Source: Nostoc sp. FACHB-973 (GTDB lineage Bacteria > Cyanobacteriota > Cyanobacteriia > Cyanobacteriales > Nostocaceae). From it: 64,000 nt of DNA. The DNA lies in contig NZ_JACJSJ010000034.1 of NCBI RefSeq assembly GCF_014698115.1, positions 1-64,000 on the forward strand, given 5' to 3'. Under the pieces are notes generated by a model that saw nothing but the letters and a program-made list of their open reading frames with translations, did no database searches and was not told where the DNA came from. This document shows, in pieces, positions 3,907 to 22,234 of this stretch; position 1 is the first letter of the stretch; each line of letters opens with the position of its first letter. The position numbers and the translations under genes are program-made.

Positions 3907-4083
3907 AGTTGATTGTATTGCCGATGCTATTGCTGATAATGCCGCTACTCTCGGTACTCCAAATCTGCAAATCATTGAACGTAAAGCGCCCCATGAGACT
4001 AATAATAGATTTTGGCAGTTTTCGACCCCTATTTTTTTAGGCTTTGTGAGAAATCCGGGGTAAAAGGTAAGGCTGCTGTAACA

Positions 4084-5175: not shown

Positions 5176-5190
5176 AGAATCTCCTTGTCT

Positions 5191-8100
5191 TTATTTACAA
5201 ATATTTTTATCGTCCTCGCTCAGGCGAGAATTGTTTCTCAGATAATCATCCAACCAATTGCAGCCCCTAGCAATTAGCTGCTCAAAATTTAAAGTTTCTG
5301 CATTCCAAAGTTCAACAAGTCCATCATCACTGACAAAGGCAATTTTTTTGCCATCAGGACTGAAGCTAATATTCCAAAAAGCATAACCATGTCCATAAAT
5401 GGTTTTCAGTTCTTCGCCATCTGTTACCTGCCAAAGTCGGATTGTGCCGTCAGCACTGGCAGAGCCAAGAATTTTGCCATCTGGACTAAAGCTAAGTTTC
5501 GTGACTTCGGCATTATGACTATGACTTTTGAAGGATTTGATTTCCTGCCCGTCTAAATTCCAGAGTCTGATGGTTTTATCCTGACTGGCAGAAGCAATTG
5601 TTTGACCATCGGGGCTAAAACGAACATTTTTGACGGAACTTTTATGTGCTTTGAAACTTTTGAGGTTTTGCCCTTGCAAGTTCCACAGTTTGATTGTCCC
5701 ATCATTATGAGCAGAAATAATTGTCTGACCATTGGGGCTGAAACTAGCACTGAAAACTTTACCCACATCTGCTTTTAAGGTTCTGAGTTCTTGACCGTTG
5801 ATATCCCATAGTTTGACTGTCCCATCATAACTAGCGCTCACCAGAGTTTGACCATTTGGACTAAAGTTTACATCGGTAACTTCTTTATTATGTCCTTTGA
5901 AGGTTCTAATATTTTGCCCATTCAAATTCCATAGTTTGATTGTTTTGTCGTCATTAGCAGTAGCAATTATCTGCCCATTGGGACTAAAATTAAGACTCCA
6001 AATTCGATTCCATTCACTATCGCTATCTGCCTTTATAGATGCAATTTCTTCCCCATTAAGACTCCACAATTTAATAGTCTTATCATCTCCGGCTGAGGCA
6101 AGAATTTTACCATCTGGACTAAAACTCACACTCCAAAGAGAATCATGATGTCCAATGAAAGTTTTGGGTTCTAGTAGAGCGCTAATATTCCATAGTTTAA
6201 CTGTGTTATCAGCACTAGCTGAGGCAAGAATTTTACCATCTGGACTAAAACTGGCGCTAAAAACAGCATCGTCATGACCTGTTAGGGTTTTGAGTTCTTG
6301 TCCATTAACACTCCACAATTTAACTGTTTTGTCAGCACTGGTGGAAGCAATGATTTTACCATCTGGGCTAAAACTGACACTAATCACATGATTGTCATGT
6401 TTGCCAAGGGTTCTGATTTCTTTTCCCTCTAAGTTCCACAGTTTAACGGTAGTGTCTCCTCCCGCAGTTGCGATCGCTTTACCATCGCGGCTCAAACTCA
6501 CACCAAAAATAGATTGTTTACTGGCTTGAAAGGTTTTGAGTTCTCGTCCATCAATACTCCAAATTTTGATGAACCCCCCTTGATCAGCCGTGACAATAGT
6601 TTTACTATCTGGGCTGCAACTGATACTCCAAACAGAATAGTTATGACCTTTGAGAGTTTTGATTTCCTGTCCGTTAATGTTCCAAAGTTTGACCGTATTA
6701 TCTCGACCTGGAGCGACAATTACTTGACCATCTGGGCTGAAACAAATGCTGCTCATAAAATGCTCTTGATTTTGCCCTTTTAAGGTGATGATTTCCCGTC
6801 CATCTATACCCCAAATTTTGATCGTGTTATTTGCACTAATTGCAGCAATCATCTTACTATCTGGGCTGAAACTCACACTTCTAAAAAGCTGATTTTGGGC
6901 AGTAATTTTTTTGATTTTCCTGCCATCAATACTCCAAAGTCTGACTGTATTATCTTCACTAGCACTAACAATATTTTGACCATCTGGACTAAAATTCACA
7001 CTTCTGACGACATCATTGTGTCCTTCTAGGCGATTTTGTTCTTTGACTTTGTAAACTGCTCGTTGCAATGCTGATCTTACCGATTCTTTAGTGTTAGCAT
7101 CTACCGAAGTTGCTGATTTCAACTGAATAGCTGCTCTTAATGCTGCGGCTAAAGCCTCAAGTTCTTTATTTGGGCTTAATAAAGCAGTGGAAAAGATACT
7201 CAAGGATTTGATTCTTTCTCTTTCTATATCTTCGATCGTCATCTTTGCCACAATTGCGGCAACTATTGCTGTAATCAGGGCGATCGCTAATATTCCCCCG
7301 CCAACTTCAATCCGTCGTTTAGCTTTTTGATTAGCTAAAATTAAAACATCATTTGCTTCTGCTAAAATCCTTGATGCTTCTGCTTCTACTTGTAATTTTT
7401 TCTGAACATCTCGCTTTTCTAATTCCTGACTAGCATCTAGAAATTTTCGATCTAAATTACTTAAACCTTTATCTGCTGCCCAATTGCGGGCATCCTGCAA
7501 AGTTTGCCCCCGCAATAAACGCGACTCATCTTTAAAGTTGGAATTTACCCAAGCATTTAAAGTTTGAGAGTATGGGCGAATATTTGCCAATACTTTGTCG
7601 AGCCATGCTTGATTAAATATCTCTGCATAGATGCAATTATAAATTTGTAATTTTCCCTGTTGCTTGACAATTAACCCCGTCAGACATAGTTGTGTTTGTT
7701 CGGGACTATCATCTGCGGGGATTTCTCCGTGGTGTAATATTTGCTGATATAATCCTAATAATCGCCCAGTTTGATTTTCGGCATTTTGGGTGAGGCGATC
7801 GCGGATAGTTCGCAAATGTTCTGGTTCATCCTGTGCTTCCCAATTTTGGATGATTTGGTTTTGTACTAATTCCTCTATACATTGCTTTTCCTGATGTTCT
7901 AGGAATGAATAATTAGAACTACAAATTAATTGACAAAGCTTTTGAGTTAAAAATGGCTGTCCACCAGTCCACTTTAATACCTCTTCTATTATCACTTTTG
8001 GTCTAGCAACTATTCCCTCTAAACCTTTAATTAAAGATTCTACTTCATTTAATTTAAATCCAGTTAATGTAATTGCCCGACCAATATTAAAAGGCGTGCG

Positions 8101-8679
8101 ATTTTTATCAGCAATTAAATTAGAGGGAGTAGCTACTCCTAACAAACAAAAAGTAAGACGTTTATATTCATGATTATCTGACCTTTGGTTATAACAAGCA
8201 CGAATAAAAGCAAAAAAATCATCTTTAAAATTGATTTTCAAAATACTATCAATTTCATCAACGAAAATCACAATTTTATCTGGAAATTCTGTTAACAGTA
8301 CATCATCGATCAATTCACTCAATCTTTGTTTAGGTGATAAAAATTCCTGCGATCGCCACCACGTCCCAAAATTCACTTTTCTGGATAAACCAAACCCCCG
8401 CAATAGCTCAGAAACAAAGCCACCATACCATTCAGAAGGTGTCACATGGCTGCCAATTCTGGTCAAGTCAACCGATGCACATTGTATACCTTGCTCTTTA
8501 AGCTGTTTCATAATATGGACTCGCAAACTAGACTTACCCATCTGCCGCGAGTTTAAGACATAACATAATTCGCCATTTTTCAAACCTTCATAGAGGTCAT
8601 AATCAGCTTGACGCACCACATAAGTTGGGTGTTGATATTCTAGGCTACCTCCGAGCTTGTAGTAGTTTAAATTTGTCAT
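5191..8679 (-). CDS. AAA/STAND ATPase with 14 WD40 repeats
   Basis: 1162 residues. The N-terminal AAA-like (AAA_35/NACHT-type) domain has Walker A SRQMGKSS (about 44-51) and Walker B IVIFVDEID (about 136-144). A helical region of about 230-450 follows. One hydrophobic segment (about 460-480, GGGILAIALITAIVAAIVA) may anchor it in a membrane. From about 550 on I count 14 WD40 repeats with FSPDG and TVKLW signatures, enough for two seven-bladed propellers. The C-terminal tail RGCNWLDDYLRNN is typical of cyanobacterial members. Such proteins are usually signalling switches or scaffolds, and some STAND ATPases act in conflict systems. It starts an operon with the exported GH5 enzyme; the role is inferred only. 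Confidence 0.9.
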   Translation of the reverse strand: MTNLNYYKLGGSLEYQHPTYVVRQADYDLYEGLKNGELCYVLNSRQMGKSSLRVHIMKQLKEQGIQCASVDLTRIGSHVTPSEWYGGFVSELLRGFGLSRKVNFGTWWRSQEFLSPKQRLSELIDDVLLTEFPDKIVIFVDEIDSILKINFKDDFFAFIRACYNQRSDNHEYKRLTFCLLGVATPSNLIADKNRTPFNIGRAITLTGFKLNEVESLIKGLEGIVARPKVIIEEVLKWTGGQPFLTQKLCQLICSSNYSFLEHQEKQCIEELVQNQIIQNWEAQDEPEHLRTIRDRLTQNAENQTGRLLGLYQQILHHGEIPADDSPEQTQLCLTGLIVKQQGKLQIYNCIYAEIFNQAWLDKVLANIRPYSQTLNAWVNSNFKDESRLLRGQTLQDARNWAADKGLSNLDRKFLDASQELEKRDVQKKLQVEAEASRILAEANDVLILANQKAKRRIEVGGGILAIALITAIVAAIVAKMTIEDIERERIKSLSIFSTALLSPNKELEALAAALRAAIQLKSATSVDANTKESVRSALQRAVYKVKEQNRLEGHNDVVRSVNFSPDGQNIVSASEDNTVRLWSIDGRKIKKITAQNQLFRSVSFSPDSKMIAAISANNTIKIWGIDGREIITLKGQNQEHFMSSICFSPDGQVIVAPGRDNTVKLWNINGQEIKTLKGHNYSVWSISCSPDSKTIVTADQGGFIKIWSIDGRELKTFQASKQSIFGVSLSRDGKAIATAGGDTTVKLWNLEGKEIRTLGKHDNHVISVSFSPDGKIIASTSADKTVKLWSVNGQELKTLTGHDDAVFSASFSPDGKILASASADNTVKLWNISALLEPKTFIGHHDSLWSVSFSPDGKILASAGDDKTIKLWSLNGEEIASIKADSDSEWNRIWSLNFSPNGQIIATANDDKTIKLWNLNGQNIRTFKGHNKEVTDVNFSPNGQTLVSASYDGTVKLWDINGQELRTLKADVGKVFSASFSPNGQTIISAHNDGTIKLWNLQGQNLKSFKAHKSSVKNVRFSPDGQTIASASQDKTIRLWNLDGQEIKSFKSHSHNAEVTKLSFSPDGKILGSASADGTIRLWQVTDGEELKTIYGHGYAFWNISFSPDGKKIAFVSDDGLVELWNAETLNFEQLIARGCNWLDDYLRNNSRLSEDDKNICK

Positions 8680-8919
8680 AATGTTTAAGATTGAATAATT
8701 CTATTTTATATATTTTCTCTTAAACCAACATATATTTTGAGATTTACCTGACTTTTTATGACATTTACTGATCTTCTCATATAAAACTGATTTCTGAATT
8801 TAAAAATTACCGTTTAAACTACTGATTTTATATGTATAGACAGCAATTAAAGAAAAGAACATAATCTTAGGTAATGGACAGTTTGCTATCACACTCACAA
8901 ACAGAAAATAGGAGCAATC
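8680..8919. promoter_or_regulatory. Divergent intergenic region, AT-rich
   Basis: 240 bp between the divergent AAA-WD40 gene and the first small exported-protein gene. It is strongly AT-rich and must hold promoters for both. No clear operator or repeat was seen. Confidence 0.35.
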
Positions 8920-9165
8920 ATGAAATTTAACTTATATCATGCAAGTATCGCAGCAATAGCAGTTATTACTTCACTTACTAGCTTCACTAACCTAGTGAAA
9001 GCACAGGAGTATCAAAATTTAGTTCCACTAGAACTATATTGGAGCGACCAAAGAGGGGATAATTTCACCGGTGCAACCAATGAAGGTGCTAGAAGGGCTG
9101 TAGAGGCTGGCTACAGTTATGTACGAACTGAAGGATATGTTTTTCCTGCAAGTCAATGCCAATAA
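8920..9165 (+). CDS. Small exported protein of unknown function
   Basis: 81 residues. AGGAG lies 6 bp before the ATG. There is a Sec signal peptide (charged MKFNLYH, hydrophobic core AAIAVITSLTS, likely cleavage after VKA at about residue 27). The mature part is about 54 residues, with WSDQRGDNF, then GARRAVEAGYSYVRTEGYVF and one Cys near the C-terminus. I do not recognise a family. It is the first of a run of small exported proteins on the plus strand. Confidence 0.7.
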   Translation: MKFNLYHASIAAIAVITSLTSFTNLVKAQEYQNLVPLELYWSDQRGDNFTGATNEGARRAVEAGYSYVRTEGYVFPASQCQ

Positions 9166-9211
9166 TGGTGTTGAATAAACACCTAGTTTTTACTGAGAGC
9201 ATCTCACCTTT

Positions 9212-9294
9212 GCAAATATACCAGGCGATTAGAAATCGCGGCTACACAAACGTTCGCGTAGCGTCTCGCAGAGAAGTCCGCCTACAGGGTTGTT
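9212..9294. repeat. Dispersed repeat (AAATCGCGG / GTCTCGC type)
   Basis: The first 30 bases (GCAAATATACCAGG to AAATCGCGG, 9212-9241) recur exactly at 42790-42819. They are followed by the ACGTTCGCGTAGCGTCTCGC repeat also seen at 22.15 kb and 56.7 kb, then AAGTCCGCCTAC. Noncoding. Confidence 0.6.
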
Positions 9295-9338
9295 TCTAAA
9301 TAAAGATAAATTGTCATTTTTCATAAAAGGAGAAACTG

Positions 9339-9704
9339 ATGAAACTTCAAGCTTTGTTCAATGTTGCTTTATCGTTGACAGCCTTGAGTTTGCCTTTTTG
9401 CCAGAGTGCTATGGCTGGCGAAGTCAACCTTTGCCCCGCCGATAGACCATGTTTTAATGAAGCCTATCAATCCGGTGATAGAGTTATTTTCCGATTTACT
9501 GGTGTCACAGGTTGGGATTTTTATAATGTCCGCTATCCGGTAAGGGGTGGGGAAAAACAAGTAGAGAATCGTTCCGGCTCCTTTACTTTTAAAAATGTTC
9601 AACCAAATAGTGTTTATACAATCAAAGTCCAAGGTTGTAACTCACACACGTTTCGACGCTCAACTTGCTCTCCCTGGAGCGAAAATTCGGTTACTACTAG
9701 ATAA
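9339..9704 (+). CDS. Small exported fibronectin-III-like protein (copy 1)
   Basis: 121 residues, start supported by AAAAGGAG upstream. Signal peptide with core ALFNVALSLTALSLPFC, cleavage probably after SAMA (about residue 26). The mature part resembles a lone Fn3-like beta-sandwich: GWDFYNVRYPV, SGSFTFKNVQPNSVYTIKVQGC, then RSTCSPW. Four Cys remain in the mature part (LCPADRPC near its start, and two later), suggesting two disulphides. It is a close paralogue of 11979-12392; the last 70 residues are almost identical. The partner gene follows 37 bp downstream. Confidence 0.75.
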   Translation: MKLQALFNVALSLTALSLPFCQSAMAGEVNLCPADRPCFNEAYQSGDRVIFRFTGVTGWDFYNVRYPVRGGEKQVENRSGSFTFKNVQPNSVYTIKVQGCNSHTFRRSTCSPWSENSVTTR

Positions 9705-9741
9705 GCACAAATTGTATTAGTTCACGCAAGGAGAAACCACC

Positions 9742-10182
9742 ATGAAACGCCAAGCTTTTTTCAATGTTGCTTTATCTTTATCTTTGTTAGGTTTAACTAC
9801 GCTTCCTGCTACTGCTAAGGAGCCTGTTATTAATAAGATTCAATCTACCAGCCAGCAAAATTCTTTCAACCTGATGGGTGATTGGTCTGGAAGCTCAGAC
9901 TGTCCAATCACAATCTATGAAGACAATGGGGAAGATGTTAAGGGCAATTGTGAAAAAGACTCTTACAGTCATGTTTTTAGTGGACGTTACTCTAGTGGAA
10001 ATAAAATTAGTCTAACCATTACACGGATAGACCCAAAGAATTGTAAGACTTCTGTTCGTGGTTTCATCCAAGTTATTGACAATGACCATGTGAAGTACTC
10101 ACAAGAAGGTTGGAATGGTTGCGGCGTAAGAACTGCACCTGTTGCTCGGCAAGATTGGTTCAGAGTGAATGCTCAGAACTAG
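9742..10182 (+). CDS. Small exported protein, paralogue A (copy 1)
   Basis: 146 residues with CAAGGAG before the ATG. Signal peptide MKRQAFFNVALSLSLLGLTTLPATA. The mature protein begins KEPVINKIQS and has FNLMGDWSGSSDCPITIYEDNG, a likely beta-barrel or lipocalin-like small fold, with four Cys. It is about 85% identical by eye to 12430-12876. The pair with the Fn3-like gene is repeated as a unit. Function unknown. Confidence 0.75.
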   Translation: MKRQAFFNVALSLSLLGLTTLPATAKEPVINKIQSTSQQNSFNLMGDWSGSSDCPITIYEDNGEDVKGNCEKDSYSHVFSGRYSSGNKISLTITRIDPKNCKTSVRGFIQVIDNDHVKYSQEGWNGCGVRTAPVARQDWFRVNAQN

Positions 10183-10304
10183 CGAGAGCGAAAAATTTCG
10201 GGTTGCCTGTTTACTCATAATCAAGTTTCCAAAAGATCCGCTTCAGACTGCTAAGTAACAAATAAAGAGTCAAAAAAGAGGTTTCCAAAATCAGAAGTAA
10301 TTTC

Positions 10305-10718
10305 ATGATGACTGTAATGCAGCGATCGCTTTTTACTCTATCCTCCGCCATCGCTTTATCCTTTGCCATTTCCGCTCCCTCCTCTGCCGGTACTCTTTCT
10401 GGATGGTGGTACGGTGATTGGAATTGCAATATCGACGGGCGACCAGCCCGCATGAGATGGAATGTGGTTGATGATAGCCAAACAACCTGTAACGGTAACG
10501 ACTGCTGGACTAGTTCTGGTGTGCGCTGGAACGGCAGCTTTTCCGATAATGGCTCACGCTGGGTGGCGTTGACAGATCCACGTAAGGGTAATCGAGGCGG
10601 ATTGTACTTCCGCCATGCTGACGGCAATCAATGGTATTTACCCCAGCCCACAGACAATAAAACCACAGGTTGGACGACGTGGAACGGTCAGCGTTATCCG
10701 CTGTCATGCTGGAAATAG
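10305..10718 (+). CDS. Exported DUF6006-type protein
   Basis: 137 residues from ATG 10305 (a second ATG follows at once). Signal peptide with core SLFTLSSAIALSFAIS, cleavage near PSSAG. The mature domain GWWYGDWNCNIDGRPARMRW, then TCNGNDCWTSSGVRW and SFSDNGSRW, matches my memory of the cyanobacterial DUF6006 family: small, periplasmic, Trp- and Cys-rich, function unknown. It sits between the two duplicated gene pairs. Confidence 0.7.
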   Translation: MMTVMQRSLFTLSSAIALSFAISAPSSAGTLSGWWYGDWNCNIDGRPARMRWNVVDDSQTTCNGNDCWTSSGVRWNGSFSDNGSRWVALTDPRKGNRGGLYFRHADGNQWYLPQPTDNKTTGWTTWNGQRYPLSCWK

Positions 10719-10733
10719 TGTAAATACAGCAAG

Positions 10734-10812
10734 GGTAGGTTGGGTTGAGGCAAGGAAACCCAACATGGACTTAGGCGCAACCCAACCCAGGTATCGCTCC
10801 ACCCAACCTACA
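10734..10812. repeat. Palindromic TAGGTTGGGTTGAGG repeat
   Basis: GTAGGTTGGGTTGAGG at the left and CCCAACCTAC at the right form long imperfect inverted arms with CCCAACATGGACTTAGG inside. This GGTTGGGTTGAGG/GAAACCCAACA repeat is familiar as a dispersed cyanobacterial element. It may also stop transcription from the upstream gene. Confidence 0.6.
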
Positions 10813-10818
10813 AGGAAA

Positions 10819-10880
10819 CTACTAGATAAGAACAAATTGCATTAGTTCACACAAGGAGAAAGCACCATGAAACGCCAAGC
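10819..10880 (+). pseudogene. Junction relic of a third copy of the duplicated gene pair
   Basis: 62 bp almost identical to 9693-9756: the last codons of the Fn3-like gene (ACTACTAGATAAG), its spacer, the CAAGGAG ribosome site and the first codons ATGAAACGCCAAGC of paralogue A. Coding sequence of both partners is missing on either side. The relic stops exactly where the AraC gene's own AAGGAAG ribosome site begins. Confidence 0.75.
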
Positions 10881-10889
10881 AAGGAAGCG

Positions 10890-11804
10890 ATGATGTCCGT
10901 AAAGCAACCTTTGGTTATTGACTATGTTGATTGGACGAAGTTGATGCCAAATCCCCCTCTTGTAACAAGTTTTCAATCGGGTTGGAGTAGCATTCAGCTT
11001 GCCCATTACCGCCAGCCATCGATAGATTTGCCTGAAGTATCCAACCCTCGGCACATGGTCTTTATTGCACTGGGGCATCAGGCAATTGATTTGGAATTTG
11101 TCTTTGAGGGTCGTTTGCAGACAATCTCGTATGAAGAAAAAGACTATGCAAGTGGCTGTATTGAAGTCGTTCCTACTGATTTACCTTATGGAGTCCGTTC
11201 TATTTCGACTGTTCAAGCAATAGAGTGGATTCACTGCTATCTAGAGCCAACATTTCTGGCTCAGATTGCTCATGAGTCGGTGAACCCCGATCGCGTCGAA
11301 CTTTTGCTGACACGGAAAAAAGTCGATTTATTGATTCACCAGATTGGTCTGGCACTCAAGTCAAGTTTAGAAGTTGATGGGGCGGGCAGTCGTTTCTACG
11401 CCGATTCGATGGCTACAGCGCTGTCGGCTCATCTGCTACGTCATTACTCTACCCGCAACCATCAGTTTCGGGAATATGAGGATGGGTTGTCTAAACAAAA
11501 GCTAAGGCAAGCCATTGAGTATATCCAAGCGCATTTGGGTGAGAATTTATCCCTGGGTGCGATCGCTAATGAACTCGGCATAAGTCAGTACTACTTCTGT
11601 CACCTATTCAAGCGATCGACTGGAATGTCGCCCCATCAATATTTGATTCACCAACGAGTAGAACAGGCAAAGCATTTATTAAGGCACCCAGGACGAACAG
11701 TTACATCCGTAGCACTAGATTGTGGCTTTGCCAATCAGAGTCATTTTGCCAAGTGTTTTCGCCAATATACTGGGATGAATCCAAAAGAGTTTCGTAAGTC
11801 ATAG
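10890..11804 (+). CDS. AraC-family transcriptional regulator
   Basis: 304 residues from ATG 10890, preceded by AAGGAAG. The N-terminal part (1-200) is an effector or cupin-like region without a clear ligand. The C-terminal 100 residues hold two AraC helix-turn-helix units. The first has LSLGAIANELGISQYYFCHLFKRSTG, the second VTSVALDCGFANQSHFAKCFRQYTGMNPKEF. Its position inside the island of exported proteins makes those genes its likely targets, an inference from location only. It is bounded upstream by a duplication relic, so it may have entered between the repeats. Confidence 0.9.
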   Translation: MMSVKQPLVIDYVDWTKLMPNPPLVTSFQSGWSSIQLAHYRQPSIDLPEVSNPRHMVFIALGHQAIDLEFVFEGRLQTISYEEKDYASGCIEVVPTDLPYGVRSISTVQAIEWIHCYLEPTFLAQIAHESVNPDRVELLLTRKKVDLLIHQIGLALKSSLEVDGAGSRFYADSMATALSAHLLRHYSTRNHQFREYEDGLSKQKLRQAIEYIQAHLGENLSLGAIANELGISQYYFCHLFKRSTGMSPHQYLIHQRVEQAKHLLRHPGRTVTSVALDCGFANQSHFAKCFRQYTGMNPKEFRKS

Positions 11805-11978
11805 CAAGATTTTGCTCTAAATCGCAAGAAAATGTGCGATTTAATTTCAGCAATTTCCTAAAGTGGTGCTAATGCTTATATGCGCTGAATAACAAGTGTT
11901 GCATCTTCTGCTTTCTCGTAATCTTAATTAACGCACGGGTTATTATCAAACTCACAAATACGAAGGGAGGGAAATTTT

Positions 11979-12392
11979 ATGAAATTTAAAAAACTTGGTT
12001 TTGGATTATCAGCACTTACAGCCCTGTCAGCGATTCCAATTTCAGTTATAACAATGCCGTTAGTGTTGAACCAGCCAGTGCAAGCTGTGTGTACTACTGA
12101 TGGCTGTAGCGATGTTCGACTTTGCCCTGCCGATAGACCATGTATTGAAGCCTCTCAATCCGGCGATAGAATGATCTTCCAATTCACCAACAGTGGAGGT
12201 TGGGACTTTTATAATGTCCGCTATCCGGTAAGGGGTGGAGAAAAACAAGTAGAAAACCGTTCTGGCTCCTTTACTTTTAAAAATATTCAACCAAATAGTG
12301 TTTATACAATCAAAGTCCAAGGTTGCAACTCACACACGTTTCGGCGATCAACTTGCTCTCCCTGGAACGAGGAGTCCGTTACTACTAGATAA
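11979..12392 (+). CDS. Small exported fibronectin-III-like protein (copy 2)
   Basis: 137 residues with GAAGGGAGG before the ATG. It has a longer signal region than copy 1 (MKFKKLGFGLSALTALSAIP, cleavage near VQA at about 36). From VRLCPADRPC on it follows copy 1 closely, with identical GWDFYNVRYPVRGGEKQVEN and the C-terminal Cys pair. N-termini are unrelated, so the duplicates share only the mature domain. Confidence 0.75.
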   Translation: MKFKKLGFGLSALTALSAIPISVITMPLVLNQPVQAVCTTDGCSDVRLCPADRPCIEASQSGDRMIFQFTNSGGWDFYNVRYPVRGGEKQVENRSGSFTFKNIQPNSVYTIKVQGCNSHTFRRSTCSPWNEESVTTR

Positions 12393-12429
12393 GCACAAAT
12401 TACATTATTTCACGCAAGGAGAAATCACC

Positions 12430-12876
12430 ATGAAACCCAAAGCTTTTTTCAATGTTGCTTTATCTTTATCTTTATCTTTGTTAGGTTTAACTACATTTCC
12501 TGCTGCTGCTAAGGAGCCTGTTATTAATAAGATTCAATCTACCAGGCAGCAAAATTCTTTCAATCTGATGGGTGATTGGTCTGGAAGCTCAGACTGTCCA
12601 ATCACAATCTATGAAGACAATGGTGAAAATGTTAAGGGGAATTGTGACAATGGCTCTTACAGTCATGTTTTTCGTGGACGTTACTCTAATGGAAATAAAA
12701 TTAGTCTAATGGTTACACGGAAAGACCCAAATAATTGCGAAACTTCTGTTAGTGCCTTAATCCAAGTGATTGACAGTAACCATGTGAAGTATTCACAGGA
12801 AGGTTGGAATGGTTGTGGCGTAAGAACTCGACCTGTTGTTAACCAAGATTGGTTCAGAGTGAATGCTCAGAACTAG
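12430..12876 (+). CDS. Small exported protein, paralogue A (copy 2)
   Basis: 148 residues starting at the ATG after CAAGGAG; upstream in-frame sequence is the tail of the Fn3-like gene and is not used. The signal peptide differs from copy 1 mainly by a two-residue expansion of the LSLS core. The mature domain keeps all four Cys, FNLMGDWSGSSDC and EGWNGCGVRT. It follows its Fn3-like partner by 37 bp, exactly as in copy 1. Confidence 0.75.
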   Translation: MKPKAFFNVALSLSLSLLGLTTFPAAAKEPVINKIQSTRQQNSFNLMGDWSGSSDCPITIYEDNGENVKGNCDNGSYSHVFRGRYSNGNKISLMVTRKDPNNCETSVSALIQVIDSNHVKYSQEGWNGCGVRTRPVVNQDWFRVNAQN

Positions 12877-12981
12877 GGAGGCTGTCACCAGAGGCAAACT
12901 CAACCATATAGTTTGAATAAACGAGCAATAAGCGTTACCGTATCTCAACTCGACACTAGTTCAAACTCAAGGAAAATTATC

Positions 12982-13407
12982 ATGAATAAAAAATGTTTTT
13001 CTGTTTTACTAGCAACAATTGGAATCATGCTTTCCTTTGCACCGATGGCTAAAGCTGGATCTGAAGCTGTAGAAACAAATTTCTGCGCCACACAACCTGG
13101 CTACCCCTTGGGTCGGTGGACAGTTGGCGTGAACAATGCCACCGAGGCCAACTATTCCAATTTTGTCACGTTCACAACTCCAACCAGTGGGACTTGGCTA
13201 CCTTCTACGGGAACAGGTAGCTTTACTACATCATCCGTTCCTGCTCCCGGTAAGGAAATTATTCTGACCTATCGTGACGATCAGTACACCGATTATTCGA
13301 GTAGAAACAAACTGGTAGTTTCCCATGATGGCTGTCGTATGAGTGGAACTTTTCTGGATAGTCAAGGACATCGGGGCGAAGCTCAGTACAGATGGACGGG
13401 AGACTAA
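12982..13407 (+). CDS. Small exported protein of unknown function
   Basis: 141 residues from ATG 12982 with CAAGGAAA just upstream; a TTG at 12913 is in frame but lies in noncoding-looking sequence. Signal peptide MNKKCFSVLLATIGIMLSFAPMAKA. The mature part is rich in Thr/Ser and beta-strand-like, contains PLGRWTVGVNN and ends SGTFLDSQGHRGEAQYRWTG, a layout resembling small beta-barrels. No named family recognised. Confidence 0.65.
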   Translation: MNKKCFSVLLATIGIMLSFAPMAKAGSEAVETNFCATQPGYPLGRWTVGVNNATEANYSNFVTFTTPTSGTWLPSTGTGSFTTSSVPAPGKEIILTYRDDQYTDYSSRNKLVVSHDGCRMSGTFLDSQGHRGEAQYRWTGD

Positions 13408-13617
13408 CCAGAGGTCAGTTTATATAGGGTGGGGCAATAAGTAATCGGACAAAAATATTTACAGTCATTGCGTAAAGGTTTTCCTCCTCAAGTCAATTAA
13501 TACCACGTTCGGAACTTAGCAGCAGTCGTAACGACTGTCTTGATTGTCAAGCGATCGCTGCTTCCATATCAAAAATGCAGTTGCATTGCTGGAAATTATG
13601 TTTAAAAGGAAAAGATT

Positions 13618-14238
13618 ATGCTTCATGAATTTTACCGACACCAACTTTTGAAGGCAGGAGTTGGTTTCATTGGTGGTGCAGCAGCAAGTACAGTTTTGTT
13701 AAATAATTGCCCTAGTATTTTAGCTCAATCTCCCAGCCTGCACATTCGTGACAATATAACTTTCCGACGAGGAGTAGCACTTGGAGGATGGTTTAACCTA
13801 GCATTATTTGCTGGCCTATTGATTGGTATTTCGAGTCCTGCAAAGGGTGAAATAACTCATTTAATACAAGAAGAATTATATATCAAACCAGGAGAATTAT
13901 ATTATGGATTACCTAATGGTATTAAAACATATTCATCCTATTTATGGAGTAATCGTTCTTGTTTTATAGAATTCGATGGCTTGGAAAGGCAGATGTGTCA
14001 AGTTGCTCGTGAAGGTAAATCTTGCTTTATAGCTATGGAATCAGGATTGCCACAACAACTTTGTGAAGCCTATAGAGAGGGTAAATCTTGTTTTATAGCA
14101 ATCAACTCAGAAAAAGATAGAAGCTGGTGCGAACACTTTAAAGAAGGAAAATCCTGTTTTATGGCATTAAATGGTAAAGAAAGGGAATTGTGCGAAGAGG
14201 GACTAATACCATTAAAGCATTTTATTTGGTTAAGTTAA
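13618..14238 (+). CDS. Membrane or exported protein with four Cys-pair repeats (EGKSCF)
   Basis: 206 residues with AAAAGGAAAAG before the ATG. Two hydrophobic stretches (about 12-28 and 55-73) may anchor it. From residue 112 there are four tandem repeats of 21-22 residues: NRSCFIE, REGKSCFIAM, REGKSCFIAI and KEGKSCFMAL. Each is followed 12-13 residues later by a second Cys usually in a CE pair (Cys115/127, 136/149, 158/171, 180/192). Charge alternates (EGK, KER). I do not recognise the family. The regular Cys pairs suggest disulphides or metal binding. It is the last gene of the island. Confidence 0.65.
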   Translation: MLHEFYRHQLLKAGVGFIGGAAASTVLLNNCPSILAQSPSLHIRDNITFRRGVALGGWFNLALFAGLLIGISSPAKGEITHLIQEELYIKPGELYYGLPNGIKTYSSYLWSNRSCFIEFDGLERQMCQVAREGKSCFIAMESGLPQQLCEAYREGKSCFIAINSEKDRSWCEHFKEGKSCFMALNGKERELCEEGLIPLKHFIWLS

Positions 14239-14593
14239 TTAGGTATAGGAATCATATTTGATTTCTGAACAAGACTGCGAGAGCGGTTCGGGAGTAAGAA
14301 ATTATTTATACTGACGCACCCTACTACCCCATAAATTTGAGATCATGTATTTTTTGGTGTTCCTTTATCGTTTTTGTCTATATTTCCATAGCGATCGCCT
14401 GTTGGGAAAAGCTGGCGATCGCAGTCTCAATGTTGGTGAAGGTAAGGACGCACTATTTGGTCGTAACTTTACCAATTTAAAGTTAGAATCAATAAAAATA
14501 AATTATCTTGAACAAACATGAGTATTAACGTTAGAAGTGCAAACTAGCCGATAAATAGTTGCTAAAATTCAGCCTAAATGAAGATTATCGTCC
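14239..14593. other. Gene-free stretch
   Basis: Holds two HIP1-type GCGATCGC sites flanking TGTTGGGAAAAGCTGG near 14393-14420, which form a weak inverted pair. No gene seen. It lies between convergent genes. Confidence 0.35.
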
Positions 14594-15937
14594 CTAATTC
14601 TTCAAGTGTTCCCGAAAATATTGTTGATATAACTGACAGCGCGGGACTAATTTATCGCCTACCCTCTTAACCAATCCCATACTGTATAACTGATATGCTG
14701 GAATGGTTGCTATATCAACTGGTTCTGTTGCCGTAACTACTTGCATAAATGCCTCAGCTAAATGAGGATTTACTTGAAAAATATTCAAAAACCTGCGGAA
14801 ATATTCTTCATAAATTCCGGCATTTGTGTGAGCAGTTTTTAATAATTTTTCTAGTGTTATATCCCCAAGTGCGAGGCGATAGAGTGCTAATCTAATTAAA
14901 TATGGATGTCCTCCAATTAGAGACATTAATTGCTGCACTTGGGTTTGATTATAATTAAGTTGATGATTATGGGCTAAAACTTCTATTTGTGATTGGGTAA
15001 ATTCGGTTAATTCAGCCACTAAGCCAACATTAAATGGTGATTGATTGATATCTAATGAGCCATAATTTTCAGTGGAATGTACTACAATTAATCGTAAATT
15101 TTCCCAAATTTCTACAGTTTTAGCTTCTTCATGCCAAGTACGTAACATGGCAAAAAAACCTTGAGAAATTTCAGGATATTGCAAAACTCTATCTACTTCA
15201 TCTAATGCTAAAACTAAATTATTATTGATTTGGTATAAAATATTATCTTCAAAATATGTAGTGCAATTAACAATGCTACCTCTATACTCATCCCAGGATT
15301 CATTTAACAAAGCAGGTAATTTTAATTTGTGGCTGACATAAACAGAAAACCAGCGCAAAAATTTATCCAAATTACTAAAACAAGTTGTTTCTGCTTGCAA
15401 CAAGTTTAAACGTACTGTATAGTAACCTTTGTGATTGGAATGAGCGATAATTCTCTCAAGCAGGGATGTTTTACCCATTTGATTAGGGGCTTTAATCCGA
15501 ATCAAAGAACCAGGGTGGAGGATTGTTTCATAACAACGTTCTTCTATTGGGGTGCGCTGGATATAAAATGGAGAATTCGGTGGCACTGAACCTTCTGGGT
15601 ATTCTGGCACAAATTCATTTTTGACAGTAATGGAACTATGTTGATTTACTTCTGTTGGTCGAATATTCTTATCCCTAAAGCATGAACGTTCAACTGCTGC
15701 ACGAAAATTAGTTTTATTAACCTCTTCCCCTAATGCTTCTGCAAGTAACTTCCACAATTTGGAACCTACATCCTGCCGGAGATATGTGGCTGCATAACCT
15801 TCATTATTGGCAATTTCATCATAGCTTAGTCCTTGCCATGACCCTTTAAGGATAATTCTTTCCACATCTTTCAGGTGTCGGTTTTTTTTGTTAAAGACAA
15901 CTGCATCTAAAATTTCTAACCCTTCTTCCGAGTTCAT
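14594..15937 (-). CDS. AAA-like ATPase with N-terminal HTH (vWA-MoxR-associated type)
   Basis: 447 residues. The first 85 form a helical domain with HTH character (LSYDEIANNEGYAATYLRQDVGSKLWKLL), like the N-terminal HTH of vWA-MoxR-associated proteins. From about 120 an AAA_35-type ATPase follows: Walker A APNQMGKTS (150-158), Walker B LVLALDEVD (241-249), then a helical lid and winged region. There is no WD40 or other C-terminal effector, so it is a short STAND-like switch. Related proteins have been proposed to act in bacterial conflict systems. It and the WD40 ATPase flank the exported-protein island. Confidence 0.85.
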   Translation of the reverse strand: MNSEEGLEILDAVVFNKKNRHLKDVERIILKGSWQGLSYDEIANNEGYAATYLRQDVGSKLWKLLAEALGEEVNKTNFRAAVERSCFRDKNIRPTEVNQHSSITVKNEFVPEYPEGSVPPNSPFYIQRTPIEERCYETILHPGSLIRIKAPNQMGKTSLLERIIAHSNHKGYYTVRLNLLQAETTCFSNLDKFLRWFSVYVSHKLKLPALLNESWDEYRGSIVNCTTYFEDNILYQINNNLVLALDEVDRVLQYPEISQGFFAMLRTWHEEAKTVEIWENLRLIVVHSTENYGSLDINQSPFNVGLVAELTEFTQSQIEVLAHNHQLNYNQTQVQQLMSLIGGHPYLIRLALYRLALGDITLEKLLKTAHTNAGIYEEYFRRFLNIFQVNPHLAEAFMQVVTATEPVDIATIPAYQLYSMGLVKRVGDKLVPRCQLYQQYFREHLKN

Positions 15938-16171
15938 TCTTCATCCTGAATAGATATGTAGGATTCCTATTTGAGTTTTAAAAAACGACTTACTTTTTAA
16001 AGACTGGCAAAATCAAAATTACTGTTCAAACAAGCATTTTAAAGTAAATCTGCGATCGCGATTTATTATCTATGCTGGTTTAAGATTGTTTTTCTTGCTT
16101 TGTCTTAGACTTGTACACACGACTGCATTTTCTCATAATGTTTTTCAAAAATCAAATAGGTGTAAACAAAA

Positions 16172-16419
16172 AATAAGAAACTTAAAGCTGTATTAGAACA
16201 CAGTGACGAAGGTGGATATATAGCGATTTTCATTTGAATGAGGTACACGGTAGGGGCGCACAGCTGTGCGCCCCTACGAATATTGCAAACCGCTATAGTA
16301 TTTATGTTCCTTCACTTCCTAGTTGTATCAGTGAAGGAGAAACTGTGGAAGAAGCATTAGAACTTTACCTAGAGCCATTGGAAGATGAAGTTACTTGCTA
16401 TCCTCTAATATCAGTGTAG
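16172..16419 (+). pseudogene. HicB-like antitoxin gene, broken by a MITE and without a start codon
   Basis: The left part (16175-16219) encodes KKLKAVLEHSDEGGY, the usual HicB opening. The right part, from 16296 on, encodes YSIYVPSLPSCISEGETVEEALELYL, the rest of the HicB fold. Between them lies a hairpin element (16219-16297). Removing it and one TATA restores a continuous frame. The start codon is also lost (AAT where ATG is expected, with a stop two codons upstream). The 3' end runs 29 bp into the opposite-strand macroglobulin gene. No HicA toxin gene is visible on either side. Confidence 0.7.
16219..16297. repeat. MITE (TATAGCG ends) inserted in the hicB relic
   Basis: The ends TATAGCG and CGCTATA match the element at 1132-1283. 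The core is a perfect 28-bp palindrome (16250-16277), half-site GTAGGGGCGCACAG. The insertion point shows a TATA present on both sides, consistent with TA-target insertion and ends that begin with TA. Confidence 0.75.
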
Positions 16420-19400
16420 ATTCAGCAGTGCGCCCAAATTCTTCTGGTGCATATTGCAGGTGAACTTGGGCACCAGGCCAAGAAAATGTCCCAGGTGTCA
16501 CAGAACGGACTAAATAATGCAGGCTGTAAACTCCTGGTTCGAGGTGGTCGGCGTAGGCGATAATACGATCGCGGTAAACATCCCTAAAACCAAGTTCCCA
16601 GCTATCGGCTTTTGCTTGTAATGCAGCCGTAGCAGTTTGAAAACTCGCATCCACCGCCTCAAAACCTGCTGGTAGTGGATCTTTTATTACTATATGATCC
16701 ACGGGGCGATCGCAGATAATTTCTAAACCAATATCAAACACTTGTCCAGGGGCTAAAGTCAAGGGTTTATCCAAAGCATAAAGCCCTGTTTTTTGTAAAA
16801 CTTTCTCTTCATTTACTTGACTAATTTCTCGCGTTATGCGTAACCCATTAAATCTGCCTGGTTGATTTCCTTGCAAGCGATAATTATAAGCAACCAAATA
16901 ATGTAAATTGCCATTACCTGATTTTTGTAGTGTTAAATCATTACGCCCACGAGGTAATTGATTCATCGGCACATTTAGCTGTAAGCTAGGATTTTTGTAG
17001 CCTTCAAAGCGATTTTCTCCTAACTTTTTCCCAGCTAATTGTACTGTGGCTACAAAATTAGGTGGTGTGGGTTGCAGTTGGCTATAATCTACCAAAGCTG
17101 TTAATGCTTGGGCATTATTATAGTTAGTTTGCCATGTGCCATTTCGTCGCAGTGCGAGAAGACTTTGGAATAACTTATCTATGACTTCGGGTTTACTTTG
17201 TTTGGCAATAAATAAACGTAAAGCTTCCGCCTGGGTTGCGGTAGATGAACTCATCCATCCCCAACTAGATGGTAAACTTACAACTGCTGTGCGACCAGTT
17301 TCATATATATTTTGTTGCAGCTTGTTCACTAATTGTTGAGATTCGTCTTGCCATTCTGCGAATTGAGATAAATATCGCGCAAGTTTAATTTGAGTGACTA
17401 CATCAAAATTATTGCGCTGTTCGTAAATATCTCCAAGGAAAGTATTGCGTTTTTCACCTAGTTCTGATAAAGCAATTAAAGCTTTCAGTTGCAGTTGTCT
17501 TTTACATAGTAGTTGTTTGCAAAAATCGTATTCTCCAGGATTGGCTAAAACTTTTTGCAAATAAGTTTTGAGGCGAGACAACATTCCCGCATCAACTAAA
17601 TTAGGAAACGCCTGATTTGCTTTCACTAAAGATTCAGCCGCATAGGAAGAAACCCAAGGGTCAGATTTTTCTTGTCCGGGGAAAGCTGCAAAACCACCAT
17701 CAGCTATTTGCAGTTTTTGTAATTTTTCAACGTACTGATTTACATTCCCTAGTCCCCAGTCCCCAGTCCCCAGTCCCCATTTTTGAGAAAGAGTTTGCAG
17801 ATTAGCCGCAATTATTAATTGACTCGCTGCGGGTTCTGCAAAAGGTAAATCATTATCTGCTAAAACCTGCTTTGCTGGTGCTTTAATTTCGGGAATTAAA
17901 GTACTCGCCAATTGAATATCTAAACCTCCGGCGTCAGGGAAGGTATTTTTGTCAACATTCAAGGGAATTTGTACTTGTTTTTCAGTTACACCAGTTTCAA
18001 CGACTTGTTCTGTTATTTCAATTGGCTTAACTTCCAAAGGTAATTCAAAAGCATCTGCGGCTGTATTATTTAGCTGAGTGGTAAAGCGAACTTTCCCGAC
18101 TCCGACACTATCCGCCACCATTGGAAAGCGATAAGCGTGAGTTGCAGATTCAGCTTTGGTTTCTAAAGCTGTAGTTGTGGGGTTTTTCTCGGCAAACTTA
18201 ACTGTACTGCTAAGTTCGCCATTAATTGAGAGATTTCCGGTATTCCCGGTGTTGTTGGTGACGGATAAACCAGCGAAGATGCGATCGCCTGGACGGGCAA
18301 ATTGTGGCAAGATAGCATTAGTTAGCAGTGGTTTGGTGCTGATAAAGGTCGCATCACCATTACCAAAACGCAGATTTCCATCAGTCGCCACAGCCATCAC
18401 CCGCCATGTAGTTAAGTCATCCGGTAATTTAAAGGTTATCTGTGCATTACCATTGGCATCGGTGAGAACAGAACCGTTGTAGTAAGCTAAGGCTTGAAAG
18501 TCTGTGCGAGTGCGAGTATTTGCTGCACCAGTCGAGAAACCACCGCCATAACCCCAACCTTTTGGTTTCGCCACATCTTGTGGTTGTAGGATAACATCTG
18601 GGCGATTATCGCTAAAGCGGGTAGAAATCGGCTGTTCTGCATAAACTGTATCTACCAAATCTGGCGGACGATAACCTGAAAGTTGTAACACCGCCTCATT
18701 CACCACCATGACTGTAAACTGTCCTTTGGTGGGATTTCCTTGACTGTCCTTCAATTCTAGTTGTACTGTTTCTTGGGCACCAGGTTCTAATGATGCTTGT
18801 AATGGCTTAACTTGCAGGTTTAAATATTTATCTGCCAAGTTAACTTTAAAAGGTGTAAAACCAATCTTCACCAAGTTATCTAAACTTCCCGCTTCCACTT
18901 GGTTAATCGGTTTACCTTGCCGGACTAATACAGCTTCCACGGCTGCATTTGGTAACATTTCTGGCGTAATTTGGAATTGAATTTGTGGTGCGCCTCCCTG
19001 AACTTTGGTAATTTGCTGAAAAAGAGGTTTGTCTTTGATGACAGCAAAGTATAATTCTGCATCTGGATAGGGAGATTGAATTAGTGCAGTAGCAGTTTCA
19101 CCAGGCCTATACTCTTTTTTATCTAGGTTAACTTCTAAAACATCTTTGTCTCTCGAACCCCAGAATACTGGATTTCCTCCAGTTACCCAAACTTGTAAAT
19201 CTGTGGCCCTTAATTCGTCTTTATCATCGCTAAAATTAGCTCTAATACGATACGATCCAGATTCAGGAGGTATCAAACTTACCGATTGTACATCGTTACC
19301 AGATATAATTTCTAGGCGTCCGACTGTTTGATATTCGACTTGATTTTTTGGCGTCCGGCTACCTTCAACTAATTGTGTGACACTGCTGTATTTTATCTTT

Positions 19401-22234
19401 TGTAATTCTACCAGTACACGTTGATCTGTGATTGGTTTTCCTGTAGGGTCAGTAACAATCACGTTAATAGGGAAAGCCTGGCCAGCGTCAGCGATAAAAT
19501 TGCTTCTTAACCCAATAAGACGATTACTTGGTAAGGCTGTGAAAGTTTGAGAATTTGCTACAGATAAATTAGAAACATCTGCAACTTGCACATCAATTCG
19601 GTAAGTCATGGGATATGGTAAATCCTTAGCCACGGTTACCGTTTGACTACTTTTACCACTAGCATCTAGTTGGGCATTAGTTTGCAATACATCACTAGAT
19701 ACAGTCGGAGATTCTTCCGGCCAAAACCATTGCCTACCAAAACTAAATTGTTCCCAACCTTTGGGAATGAAATTAGCCTGTTGACGAGTGATAAAGTATT
19801 TTGCTTCTCCACCTTCCACAGGTGCGCCAAATAAATAATTACTAGTCGCTTTAATATCAACTTTCTCATCAACGAGAGCAAATTCTTTATCTAAATTGAG
19901 TTCAACTTTAAAATTGGGTGGTTTAAACTCAGCTACCCGAAATTCACCAGAAATTTCTTGCCCATTTTTACCTTTGGCTTGGATTGTATAGTAACCTAAG
20001 CGCTGAGTTTTTTGGATGGGCAATTCTAGGGAAAACGTACCAAACTCATTTGTAGTTTGCGTGCCTAAGTTAGTTTTTTGCCCATCGGGATTGAGGAGAG
20101 TTAGCTGATAAACAGCATTTTTATCTTGCTGAATTGCACCATTTTGTAAGTAGTTAGTAAAACCCGTTAACCAAGCTTTTTCACCTGGTTGATATAACTG
20201 TCTATCTGAGAAAATTACCCCGCGTGATTCTGGCTTGTTATCTTGCCAACCTGCATCAATTCCGTAACCATAAACGCCGCTATATTCTTCGACTCTCGCA
20301 AATGCCCAATCTTGATTTTCACGGGCAATTACTAAGACTTGCGGTGACTTAACAGAACTTTGATTTTCCGAATTACATTGCTGTAATTGTTCGCGGTTAA
20401 CTCTAAGAATGCCATTTTCATCAGTTTTACCTGTTGCACAAGGTACAGGTTCAGGACGTGATTTTGCCTGTAATTTTGATTGATAAATTTCAATACTAGC
20501 CGCTTTCACTGGCGAACCATCAGTAAGATGATTAACGCGAATTAATCCTGACTCTGGAAACCATTGAGTAAATACGCCCAAATTCGTCAATTCAACCATG
20601 CCATAAGTCGTAGGTTCCCGCCACAATTCCTTGCCATTCTCCTGATATTTATTCGTGCGGGCTTGGACTCCATAAGCTAACATTCCCGTAGGAGAATTTA
20701 TTTTTTCTGGCAGAGGAACAGTAACATCAACTGATTGATTTTTCTTACCTGATACTTTGAAGCTTTCCCACTGGGCAGGTTTTGGTAAGAAATCATTACT
20801 ATAGTTAAAATAAACTAAATCTGTCGGTTTAACTACTTGATAAGCTGCTTTATATTGCGATTCTGGCAGATTTACTGTACTAATATTTAACTGTAAATCT
20901 TTATCTGCGGGGAAGATATTTAAATCTGATGGTACCCAGATATCCCCGGCTAAATCTCCAGTATCGTATTTAATTGTGACGGGTTTACCTAAAGTCTGCC
21001 CAAATTTATCTTTGAGATTGCTGTTAATAGTAATTGTATAAGTTTTCGCTGGTTCTAGGGCATAAGGATTGATACCGACAATTCTATCTTCATCGTTTAC
21101 TTGGAGAATTCTCGCAATATCTTTTGGTGCTGGATTAATGGTAATATTTTCTTTGGCGGAATCTGCTATTAAGACGTTATTAAACTCTAACTGGGGACTA
21201 CCTTTAATAAATCTTCCATAGGTTCCACCTGCATCTGGCTGTCCGTAAAAGTTAATTTGCCGAAATGCTAAAGGCGAATAAGTTGCTAACTTAGTGGCAA
21301 ATTCTTTTTCTGTTGGAAGATTGCCATAAGCAGGAAGTATTCCAGGAGAAAATACTAAGCGATAACGGGTTGCTTTTTCGAGATTCTGTTGTGGGGTGAG
21401 GTTATATATCCAATTCCGTGCGGAAGGGTCAAATTTTTCTACAGGTTCTTCGTCTTCTGATGGCTTTTCTTCTTTATTTAATTCGACTTTGAAGCGTACA
21501 CCTTGATTTTTACCTTCAGGAATTAACTGTAAATGTTCTTGAACAGAACCTAAATCTAATTCTACATTGGAAGTGAATTGTAATTTCTGTTGTAAATCAA
21601 TGGGTTCGGCGTCAGCTTTTTCGATGGGGTTAACGCCGGGTAAATTAGTTAAGTTGATAGACTCGGTATTGAATGTCCAAGCTAAATCTTTGTCTAGTCG
21701 ATGATTTTTTAAATCGGCTAAACCTGCTTTGAGGGTAACTTGTAATCGCGTGGCTTTTGGCAGTGCTTTCTGGGCTTGAAATCCCACCATGCGCGGTGTC
21801 AAAAAGCGAAATTCTCCGGGTAAAGGCGGCCAAATAGCAAATTTTTGTAATAATTTTTGTTGTTCTGGACTGTCAAGACTCTCAACTGGGATTAAGGCTT
21901 CTTTAAAACGGATGCGGATTTGGTTGAGGGGTTTGGCATCTCCGATGGGGCTTATTTGTTCAATCCAGTCTGGTAGTTTTGGTGGGGTGAGTTGGGAAAC
22001 TGTTGGAAGTTGTTCTTTGGTTGAGTTGATACCAAAGAAATTACACCCTGCCATTGCTAGTGTAAATGTAAAGAGAAGAAGAAATTGTATTGTTCTCTTC
22101 TTTCTCGAAGAACGACTGATTTTTTTTAACGAACTGCCAAGGACGCGTTCTCTGCGAGACACTACGTGAACGCGCAGCGTCTCGAAGAGATGGACAATTG
22201 TATAGTGCAAACGGAAGAAAAATCTGATAAGCAT
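16391..22234 (-). CDS. Large alpha-2-macroglobulin family lipoprotein, thioester motif lost
   Basis: 1947 residues. Basic N-terminus, hydrophobic segment and lipobox LAMAGC (Cys near residue 64), then macroglobulin (MG) domains, a bait-region-containing half and the conserved A2M segment (DLTTWRVMAVATDGNLRFG, about 1290). The helical thioester domain follows and finally the C-terminal receptor-like part with DRIIAYADHLEPGVY. Where thioester members have a GCxEQ motif, this one has LPFAEPAASQ (about 1462-1471): both Cys and Gln are gone. A heptamer repeat codes GLGTGDWGLGN about 20 residues later. The start is uncertain; the first 35 codons overlap a dispersed repeat (22143-22185). These proteins are periplasmic protease traps. 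The divergent pbpC neighbour is the classical partner. Confidence 0.92.
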   Translation of the reverse strand: MLIRFFFRLHYTIVHLFETLRVHVVSRRERVLGSSLKKISRSSRKKRTIQFLLLFTFTLAMAGCNFFGINSTKEQLPTVSQLTPPKLPDWIEQISPIGDAKPLNQIRIRFKEALIPVESLDSPEQQKLLQKFAIWPPLPGEFRFLTPRMVGFQAQKALPKATRLQVTLKAGLADLKNHRLDKDLAWTFNTESINLTNLPGVNPIEKADAEPIDLQQKLQFTSNVELDLGSVQEHLQLIPEGKNQGVRFKVELNKEEKPSEDEEPVEKFDPSARNWIYNLTPQQNLEKATRYRLVFSPGILPAYGNLPTEKEFATKLATYSPLAFRQINFYGQPDAGGTYGRFIKGSPQLEFNNVLIADSAKENITINPAPKDIARILQVNDEDRIVGINPYALEPAKTYTITINSNLKDKFGQTLGKPVTIKYDTGDLAGDIWVPSDLNIFPADKDLQLNISTVNLPESQYKAAYQVVKPTDLVYFNYSNDFLPKPAQWESFKVSGKKNQSVDVTVPLPEKINSPTGMLAYGVQARTNKYQENGKELWREPTTYGMVELTNLGVFTQWFPESGLIRVNHLTDGSPVKAASIEIYQSKLQAKSRPEPVPCATGKTDENGILRVNREQLQQCNSENQSSVKSPQVLVIARENQDWAFARVEEYSGVYGYGIDAGWQDNKPESRGVIFSDRQLYQPGEKAWLTGFTNYLQNGAIQQDKNAVYQLTLLNPDGQKTNLGTQTTNEFGTFSLELPIQKTQRLGYYTIQAKGKNGQEISGEFRVAEFKPPNFKVELNLDKEFALVDEKVDIKATSNYLFGAPVEGGEAKYFITRQQANFIPKGWEQFSFGRQWFWPEESPTVSSDVLQTNAQLDASGKSSQTVTVAKDLPYPMTYRIDVQVADVSNLSVANSQTFTALPSNRLIGLRSNFIADAGQAFPINVIVTDPTGKPITDQRVLVELQKIKYSSVTQLVEGSRTPKNQVEYQTVGRLEIISGNDVQSVSLIPPESGSYRIRANFSDDKDELRATDLQVWVTGGNPVFWGSRDKDVLEVNLDKKEYRPGETATALIQSPYPDAELYFAVIKDKPLFQQITKVQGGAPQIQFQITPEMLPNAAVEAVLVRQGKPINQVEAGSLDNLVKIGFTPFKVNLADKYLNLQVKPLQASLEPGAQETVQLELKDSQGNPTKGQFTVMVVNEAVLQLSGYRPPDLVDTVYAEQPISTRFSDNRPDVILQPQDVAKPKGWGYGGGFSTGAANTRTRTDFQALAYYNGSVLTDANGNAQITFKLPDDLTTWRVMAVATDGNLRFGNGDATFISTKPLLTNAILPQFARPGDRIFAGLSVTNNTGNTGNLSINGELSSTVKFAEKNPTTTALETKAESATHAYRFPMVADSVGVGKVRFTTQLNNTAADAFELPLEVKPIEITEQVVETGVTEKQVQIPLNVDKNTFPDAGGLDIQLASTLIPEIKAPAKQVLADNDLPFAEPAASQLIIAANLQTLSQKWGLGTGDWGLGNVNQYVEKLQKLQIADGGFAAFPGQEKSDPWVSSYAAESLVKANQAFPNLVDAGMLSRLKTYLQKVLANPGEYDFCKQLLCKRQLQLKALIALSELGEKRNTFLGDIYEQRNNFDVVTQIKLARYLSQFAEWQDESQQLVNKLQQNIYETGRTAVVSLPSSWGWMSSSTATQAEALRLFIAKQSKPEVIDKLFQSLLALRRNGTWQTNYNNAQALTALVDYSQLQPTPPNFVATVQLAGKKLGENRFEGYKNPSLQLNVPMNQLPRGRNDLTLQKSGNGNLHYLVAYNYRLQGNQPGRFNGLRITREISQVNEEKVLQKTGLYALDKPLTLAPGQVFDIGLEIICDRPVDHIVIKDPLPAGFEAVDASFQTATAALQAKADSWELGFRDVYRDRIIAYADHLEPGVYSLHYLVRSVTPGTFSWPGAQVHLQYAPEEFGRTAESTLILEDSK
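17751..17780. repeat. In-frame heptamer array inside the macroglobulin gene
   Basis: Four tandem AGTCCCC units (GGGGACT on the coding strand). They encode the Trp/Gly-rich insert WGLGTGDWGLGN in the thioester-domain region. The same heptamer type is intergenic elsewhere (49.1 kb). Confidence 0.8.
22143..22185. repeat. Dispersed GAGACGCTACGCGAACG repeat at the macroglobulin N-terminus
   Basis: Contains CTCTGCGAGACACTACGTGAACGCG and a second arm CGCAGCGTCTCG. It is the same repeat as at 9.25 kb, 38.77 kb and 56.65 kb, here read as codons for RVHVVSRRE if the gene starts at 22234. Confidence 0.6.

Follow-up and report, generated by a model that had tools for sequence, protein, structure and literature searches.

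A four-unit cysteine-repeat reading frame in Nostoc sp. FACHB-973 with a 5' end homologous to Tat-signal protein genes

The cysteine array and described repeat families

Tandem units with regularly placed cysteines are a feature of CagY and of the Sel1-like Hcp proteins of Helicobacter, whose helical repeats are disulphide-linked; the published description (PMC2581425) gives units of 36 residues for Hcp and 38-39 for CagY and reports disulphide stabilisation. A second family, LprI/DUF1311 (PF07007), combines a signal-like N-terminus with two cysteines about 12 residues apart, and cyanobacterial LprI sequences have a C-x11-C spacing. A third group, proteins with WRFC repeats behind a Tat-type signal, is considered with the 5' end of the gene. 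Here we describe an open reading frame (ORF) of Nostoc sp. FACHB-973 that resembles each of these in part. It lies in a window of 64,000 nucleotides, which is the whole stretch of DNA that was analysed, and its main features are the following.

13606..13610, + strand: AAGGA, likely Shine-Dalgarno sequence, seven bases before the ATG of the ORF (read from sequence)
13618..14238, + strand: ORF of 206 amino acids with ATG start (ORF translation); a 97% identical copy occurs in N. paludosum FACHB-159 (L008 6001-6621)
13849..13944, + strand: linker, residues 78-109 (read from translation)
13945..14010, + strand: repeat 1, W110-R131, WSNRSCFIEFDGLERQMCQVAR
14011..14076, + strand: repeat 2, E132-R153, EGKSCFIAMESGLPQQLCEAYR
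14077..14142, + strand: repeat 3, E154-K175, EGKSCFIAINSEKDRSWCEHFK
14143..14202, + strand: repeat 4, E176-G195, EGKSCFMALNGKERELCEEG
14203..14235, + strand: C-terminal tail LIPLKHFIWLS (read from translation)

The genome with the second copy (G031) is taken to be that of N. paludosum FACHB-159, its place matching NZ_JACJTU010000022.1. The whole array, repeats 1-4 (13945-14202), forms the C-terminal ~40% of the ORF, and residues 1-109 comprise two signal-like stretches and the linker. The cysteines are residues 31, 115, 127, 136, 149, 158, 171, 180 and 192. The last eight of these nine follow each other at distances of 12, 9, 13, 9, 13, 9 and 12, which gives the four units of 21-22 residues that the first-pass annotation had described. 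The EGKSCF motif it had named is exact in three of the four units, the first reading SNRSCF, and no unit departs from S, C, F and the second C. A charged REGK/KEGK segment lies between the tandem units. The regularity of the spacing, 12-13 within and 9 between repeats, was likewise upheld: with nine cysteines placed at random in 206 residues (200,000 trials), the longest alternating run (12 or 13, then 9) had four steps and arose in two trials, compared with seven steps observed.

The units are also tandem duplicates at the DNA level, where three 44-nt copies recur with a spacing of 66 nt; identity to the middle one is 73% and 75% for the outer two. For five of the six repeat pairs dN/dS was 0.41, 0.62, 0.34, 0.48 and 0.14, and for R2-R4 it was undefined owing to saturated synonymous sites. 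Since pS is 0.56-0.97 in all pairs, these ratios show no more than that codons changed with protein-level features preserved.

Structure prediction, proposed in the first-pass annotation, returned one helix at the second cysteine of each unit in both AlphaFold2 models but no dependable fold, as mean pLDDT was too low for a fold to rest on them (39.4 for residues 78-206, 42.1 for the array alone). In the first model the SCF segment forms a strand, in the second it does not; the modelled helices and strands are at most suggestive.

The motif could not be named at first reading, and this stands. No Pfam or NCBIfam model matched the whole protein over cut-off (E up to 1), and no Pfam model matched the array or two parts of it over cut-off at E up to 10, a setting at which the filters drop most matches above about 0.1. 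The best Pfam match, CENP-M, reached 15.8 bits against a cut-off of 25 and was taken as chance. Also at chance level was the NCBIfam CFI-box putative sorting motif NF041763 (11.4 bits, cut-off 15.9, E 0.21), six of whose 14 model positions align with ORF residues 133-138. Searching the PDB by sequence gave 11 sequences at E up to 10 (best 7.5e-7), and the only ones under E 0.001 were four designed TIM barrels of the sTIM11 series. In the three alignments inspected, their scores add up from separate stretches worth 1 to 10.2 bits each, and they were therefore treated as repeat inflation. Among literature titles and abstract beginnings we found nothing concerning this protein, which is not proof of absence in print.

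The described families are set apart from the array in several respects. By their published description (PMC2581425), the Hcp/Sel1-like and CagY units are much longer than the 21-22 residues seen here. LprI/DUF1311 proteins are single domains with LNxxYQQL and W(I/V)KFRD-like motifs in most sequences examined, in contrast to the array. Neither Sel1 nor LprI gave a Pfam match to the whole protein (E up to 1) or the array (E up to 10). A profile-profile comparison with LprI used 14 sequences from 17 loci; L072, which is not LprI-like, and L085, a duplicate of L083, were left out, and L081 gave no frame. The hhalign probability was 0.17, with six columns aligned away from the cysteine motif, and 40 of 60 column shuffles scored as high; a 22-column profile has low power, so this is absence of support and not disproof.

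A 5' end shared with Tat-signal protein genes

Upstream of the linker the ORF contains two signal-like stretches, the first as part of a longer module.

13563..13730, + strand: putatively borrowed module of 5' leader, ribosome site and Tat-type signal, homologous to WRFC-repeat protein genes
13618..13728, + strand: signal 1, residues 1-37, with RHQLLKAG in place of the RRQLLKAG or RRQFLKAG of homologues
13789..13848, + strand: second hydrophobic signal- or anchor-like stretch, residues 58-77 (19-residue hydropathy window 52-70, 1.70)

Bases 13563-13730 are 78% identical to the start of a gene from another genus (G058; L003 1443-1610), and bases 13609-13730 are 81% identical to a neighbouring gene in N. 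paludosum. Both similarities end with the signal, at base 13730 (residue 37/38). A third, weaker match covers 13616-13682 at 70% (L005). Judged by sequence the ORF is a chimera in which the part from the 5' leader through the ribosome site to residue 37 is homologous to the gene of an unrelated twin-arginine-signal protein, a feature newly recognised here. The WRFC-repeat proteins (L008 5071-5616, L003, L005) share these parts with the ORF, whereas their mature part is a WRFCxKC...CPAGGxH repeat unrelated to the array. In N. paludosum such a donor-type gene with its own repeats (L008 5071-5616) is located about 400 bases upstream of the ORF copy (6001).

The WRFC-repeat genes at L008 5071-5616, L003 657-1298 and 1486-2043, and L005 encode three-repeat proteins of the WRFCxKCQxMF...CPAGGxH type, most of them with Tat-like signals. 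The one such protein scanned had weak zinc-ribbon similarity, all of it under Pfam cut-offs.

Both carriers read YRHQLLKAG at the position where three homologous signals (L003, L005, L007) have the twin arginine. Arg-His in place of twin Arg would weaken Tat export. Two segments of the ORF exceed 1.6 in hydropathy, and the second, at residues 58-77, is preceded by arginines and is plausibly the original signal of the repeat protein. There is no in-frame ATG, GTG or TTG between residues 27 and 68, which makes an independent start there now unlikely. The lost twin arginine and the two tandem signals could point to a recent, poorly working fusion.

Among the first three guesses at the array, a disulphide-bonded extracellular repeat fits best, given the eight cysteines, the signal-like N-terminus and the secreted-looking neighbours. 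We consider it about an even chance that the ORF encodes a lineage-restricted exported repeat protein, held by disulphides and with variable turns facing a ligand or partner in the envelope; export, disulphides, fold and binding role are what we infer in this proposal. In each unit, SCF would lie in an extended segment, with a turn containing many N, G, S or D residues and then a short helix in which the second cysteine sits. Outside the cytoplasmic membrane, where conditions are oxidising, the eight cysteines would form four disulphides, and the paired array may be a small rigid rod or solenoid that displays the variable turns; its most likely role would be that of a binding or structural protein in the envelope or sheath. 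Export would be by signal 1, Tat-derived and without its twin arginine, by the second hydrophobic stretch, or by both, and the latter could stay as a membrane anchor. This proposal is based on the regular eight-cysteine array, the two hydrophobic segments and the apparently signal-bearing neighbours. It is further suggested by repeats that have diverged in DNA (73-75%) with S, C, F and the second C invariant, by dN/dS of 0.14-0.62 in five of six repeat pairs, and by the helix at the second cysteine in both low-confidence models. Against it stand the poor models, near-neutral variation between two strains, the finding of only two carriers and the lack of a promoter-like site on the + strand in a sigma-70 scan.

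As a small example, the ORF makes it possible to test how an export signal is acquired by a lineage-specific repeat protein, and its fusion point can be placed closely. Should the array prove to fold with four disulphides, it would represent a small repeat scaffold not yet listed.

Distribution and variation between strains

Within the searched sets the distribution of the array is narrow, N. paludosum FACHB-159 being the one genome besides its own (G000) in which it was found, at 97% identity. The profile search of the repeat suggested by the first-pass annotation (profile A3, 208 family genomes) gave four units in each of these two and weak matches in nine others at E 0.1, in which a pattern scan found no array. 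The whole protein matched six of 99 relatives at E 0.001: the two carriers strongly, two through the signal only and two through frames in repeat DNA. Residues 52-206 searched against 217 family genomes matched 23 at E 0.1 or better, of which only the same two were strong, the best of the rest being 8.6e-5. DNA searches of 53 genus genomes gave strong matches in two. A genome labelled as the same species (G196) was without a match in both the 217 family and the 53 genus genomes.

In the class sample (388 genomes) three other genomes matched at E 0.01 or better and had no array by pattern scan, and the array was not found in the order (388) or phylum (386) samples. These three sets are overlapping samples from which G031 was not reported, so other carriers may be missed. 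Back-translated peptides detected one relative among 20 stretches of the species collection. The array had no match among plasmids, nor among viral contigs in a search sensitive to close relatives only.

Pattern scanning of the examined loci found three successive C-pair units only in those of the two carriers. Chance C-pair hits, one to three per locus, occurred in L003, L025, L028, L032, L039 and another frame of the carrier loci. At least six were present in L029, apparently from repeated DNA read as low-complexity sequence. Two of the weak family matches, in G036 and G033 (L004, L006), proved on full reading to be frames through short tandem DNA repeats. These repeats (L004 about 1300-1720, L006 about 1370-1710) leave several frames open on both strands and imitate cysteine-rich repeat proteins in searches.

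The two strains differ in eight codons of the ORF. Seven of the changes are non-synonymous and fall within residues 34-85; the eighth is synonymous and lies in the repeats. For an ORF with 489 non-synonymous and 129 synonymous sites the ratio is about neutral, and the variation supports a live gene no more than it opposes one. With no non-synonymous and a single synonymous change, the repeats themselves vary too little for constraint to be demonstrated. Scanning 13400-14620 for the sigma-70 consensus, which covers that promoter type only, gave no promoter-like site on the + strand and two on the - strand; shuffles averaged 3.8.

These observations bear on the chief rival explanation, which we regard as unlikely but serious: recombination fused a once-secreted array to the 5' end of a gene for a Tat-signal protein, leaving an ORF that is by now a relic, decaying or not made. 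Such a chimeric relic is favoured by the stop of homology to donor-type genes right after the signal, the lost twin arginine, the excess of non-synonymous over synonymous codon changes (seven to one), strong matches in just two of 217 family and two of 53 genus genomes, and the sigma-70 result for the + strand. However, the ORF is fully open in both genomes and has a plausible ribosome site, and the repeats are identical in protein between them.

Neighbouring genes and the remaining explanations

Several small ORFs follow one another upstream of the ORF, and most of them, from a reading of the sequence, carry secretion signals; the small neighbours at 8920-13407 have such signals, the AraC regulator excepted. 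Nine neighbours in the window were scanned against Pfam.

9339: fn3-like protein, below Pfam cut-off (21.4 bits)
9742 and within 12298-12876: two related proteins of no family
10305: DUF6006 protein (Pfam)
10890: AraC regulator (Pfam)
11979: fn3-like protein, at Pfam cut-off (25 bits)
12913-13407: protein without Pfam or NCBIfam assignment
14594-15937: AAA_35 gene, downstream and convergent (Pfam)
16391-22234, - strand: very large gene, its product presumably an alpha-2-macroglobulin-type protein

Blocks 9411-10186 and 12100-12880 are duplicates, 89% identical, that cover an fn3-like gene and its neighbour. N. paludosum matches the window at 4084-8680 (94%) and 13534-16125 (96%), and near the gene, along some 1,100 bases, the two differ at 0-4 positions in every 100. 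At the matching place G196 has no similarity to the window from about 3624 to 15823 except a 68-base piece (3928-3995). About 4.8 kb is found there instead (L067 14558-19404), with a ricin-type lectin, an AbfB-domain protein and, by eye, a WD40-like protein. Of the AAA_35 gene the start alone remains, and the segment was thus probably lost in G196. The locus is possibly a strain-variable slot for secreted proteins. It is doubtful, and we put it forward as a conjecture, that the exported repeat protein is a new 22-residue disulphide solenoid of one Nostoc lineage, its export module (leader, ribosome site, signal) captured in a strain-variable locus with duplicated leaders and exchanged mature domains.

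The other two first guesses gained no support and are highly improbable, because ligand motifs and partner genes are missing. A metal- or cofactor-binding protein would agree with eight regularly placed cysteines, but the repeats are without CxxC, CxxCH or clustered histidines, the three histidines in residues 78-206 are irregularly placed, and the zinc-finger matches of the array were far under the Pfam cut-offs (13.3-14.5 bits against 28.8 and 12.5 against 26.1). A multi-core precursor cut into 22-residue cysteine peptides would suit tandem units parted by charged REGK/KEGK, but signal-like stretches stand in place of the usual leader, and no modification enzyme, protease or transporter gene was seen adjoining the ORF, by ORF reading and in the Pfam scan of the neighbours. 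Similarly improbable is membership, however divergent, in a known disulphide-hairpin class (LprI/DUF1311, Sel1-like Hcp or CagY-type repeats), which the similar cysteine spacing of cyanobacterial LprI and the regular, disulphide-linked repeats of CagY and Hcp (PMC2581425) would favour, and the low-power LprI profile comparison and the lack of a Sel1 or LprI match in Pfam oppose.

Two further repeats were noted. A 63-base leader precedes several genes (9693-9755, 10818-10880, 12381-12440 and partly 9296-9373), its copies 90-94% identical; with 9690-9760 as the query, matches came from this locus alone, with three copies in the own genome, one in G031 and none in G196. Directly after the stop codon of the ORF, 14243-14282 is a dispersed repeat of 30-40 bases that, among the matches listed from 40 scored candidates per genome, has 27 further places in G196, 14 in G000 and three in G031.
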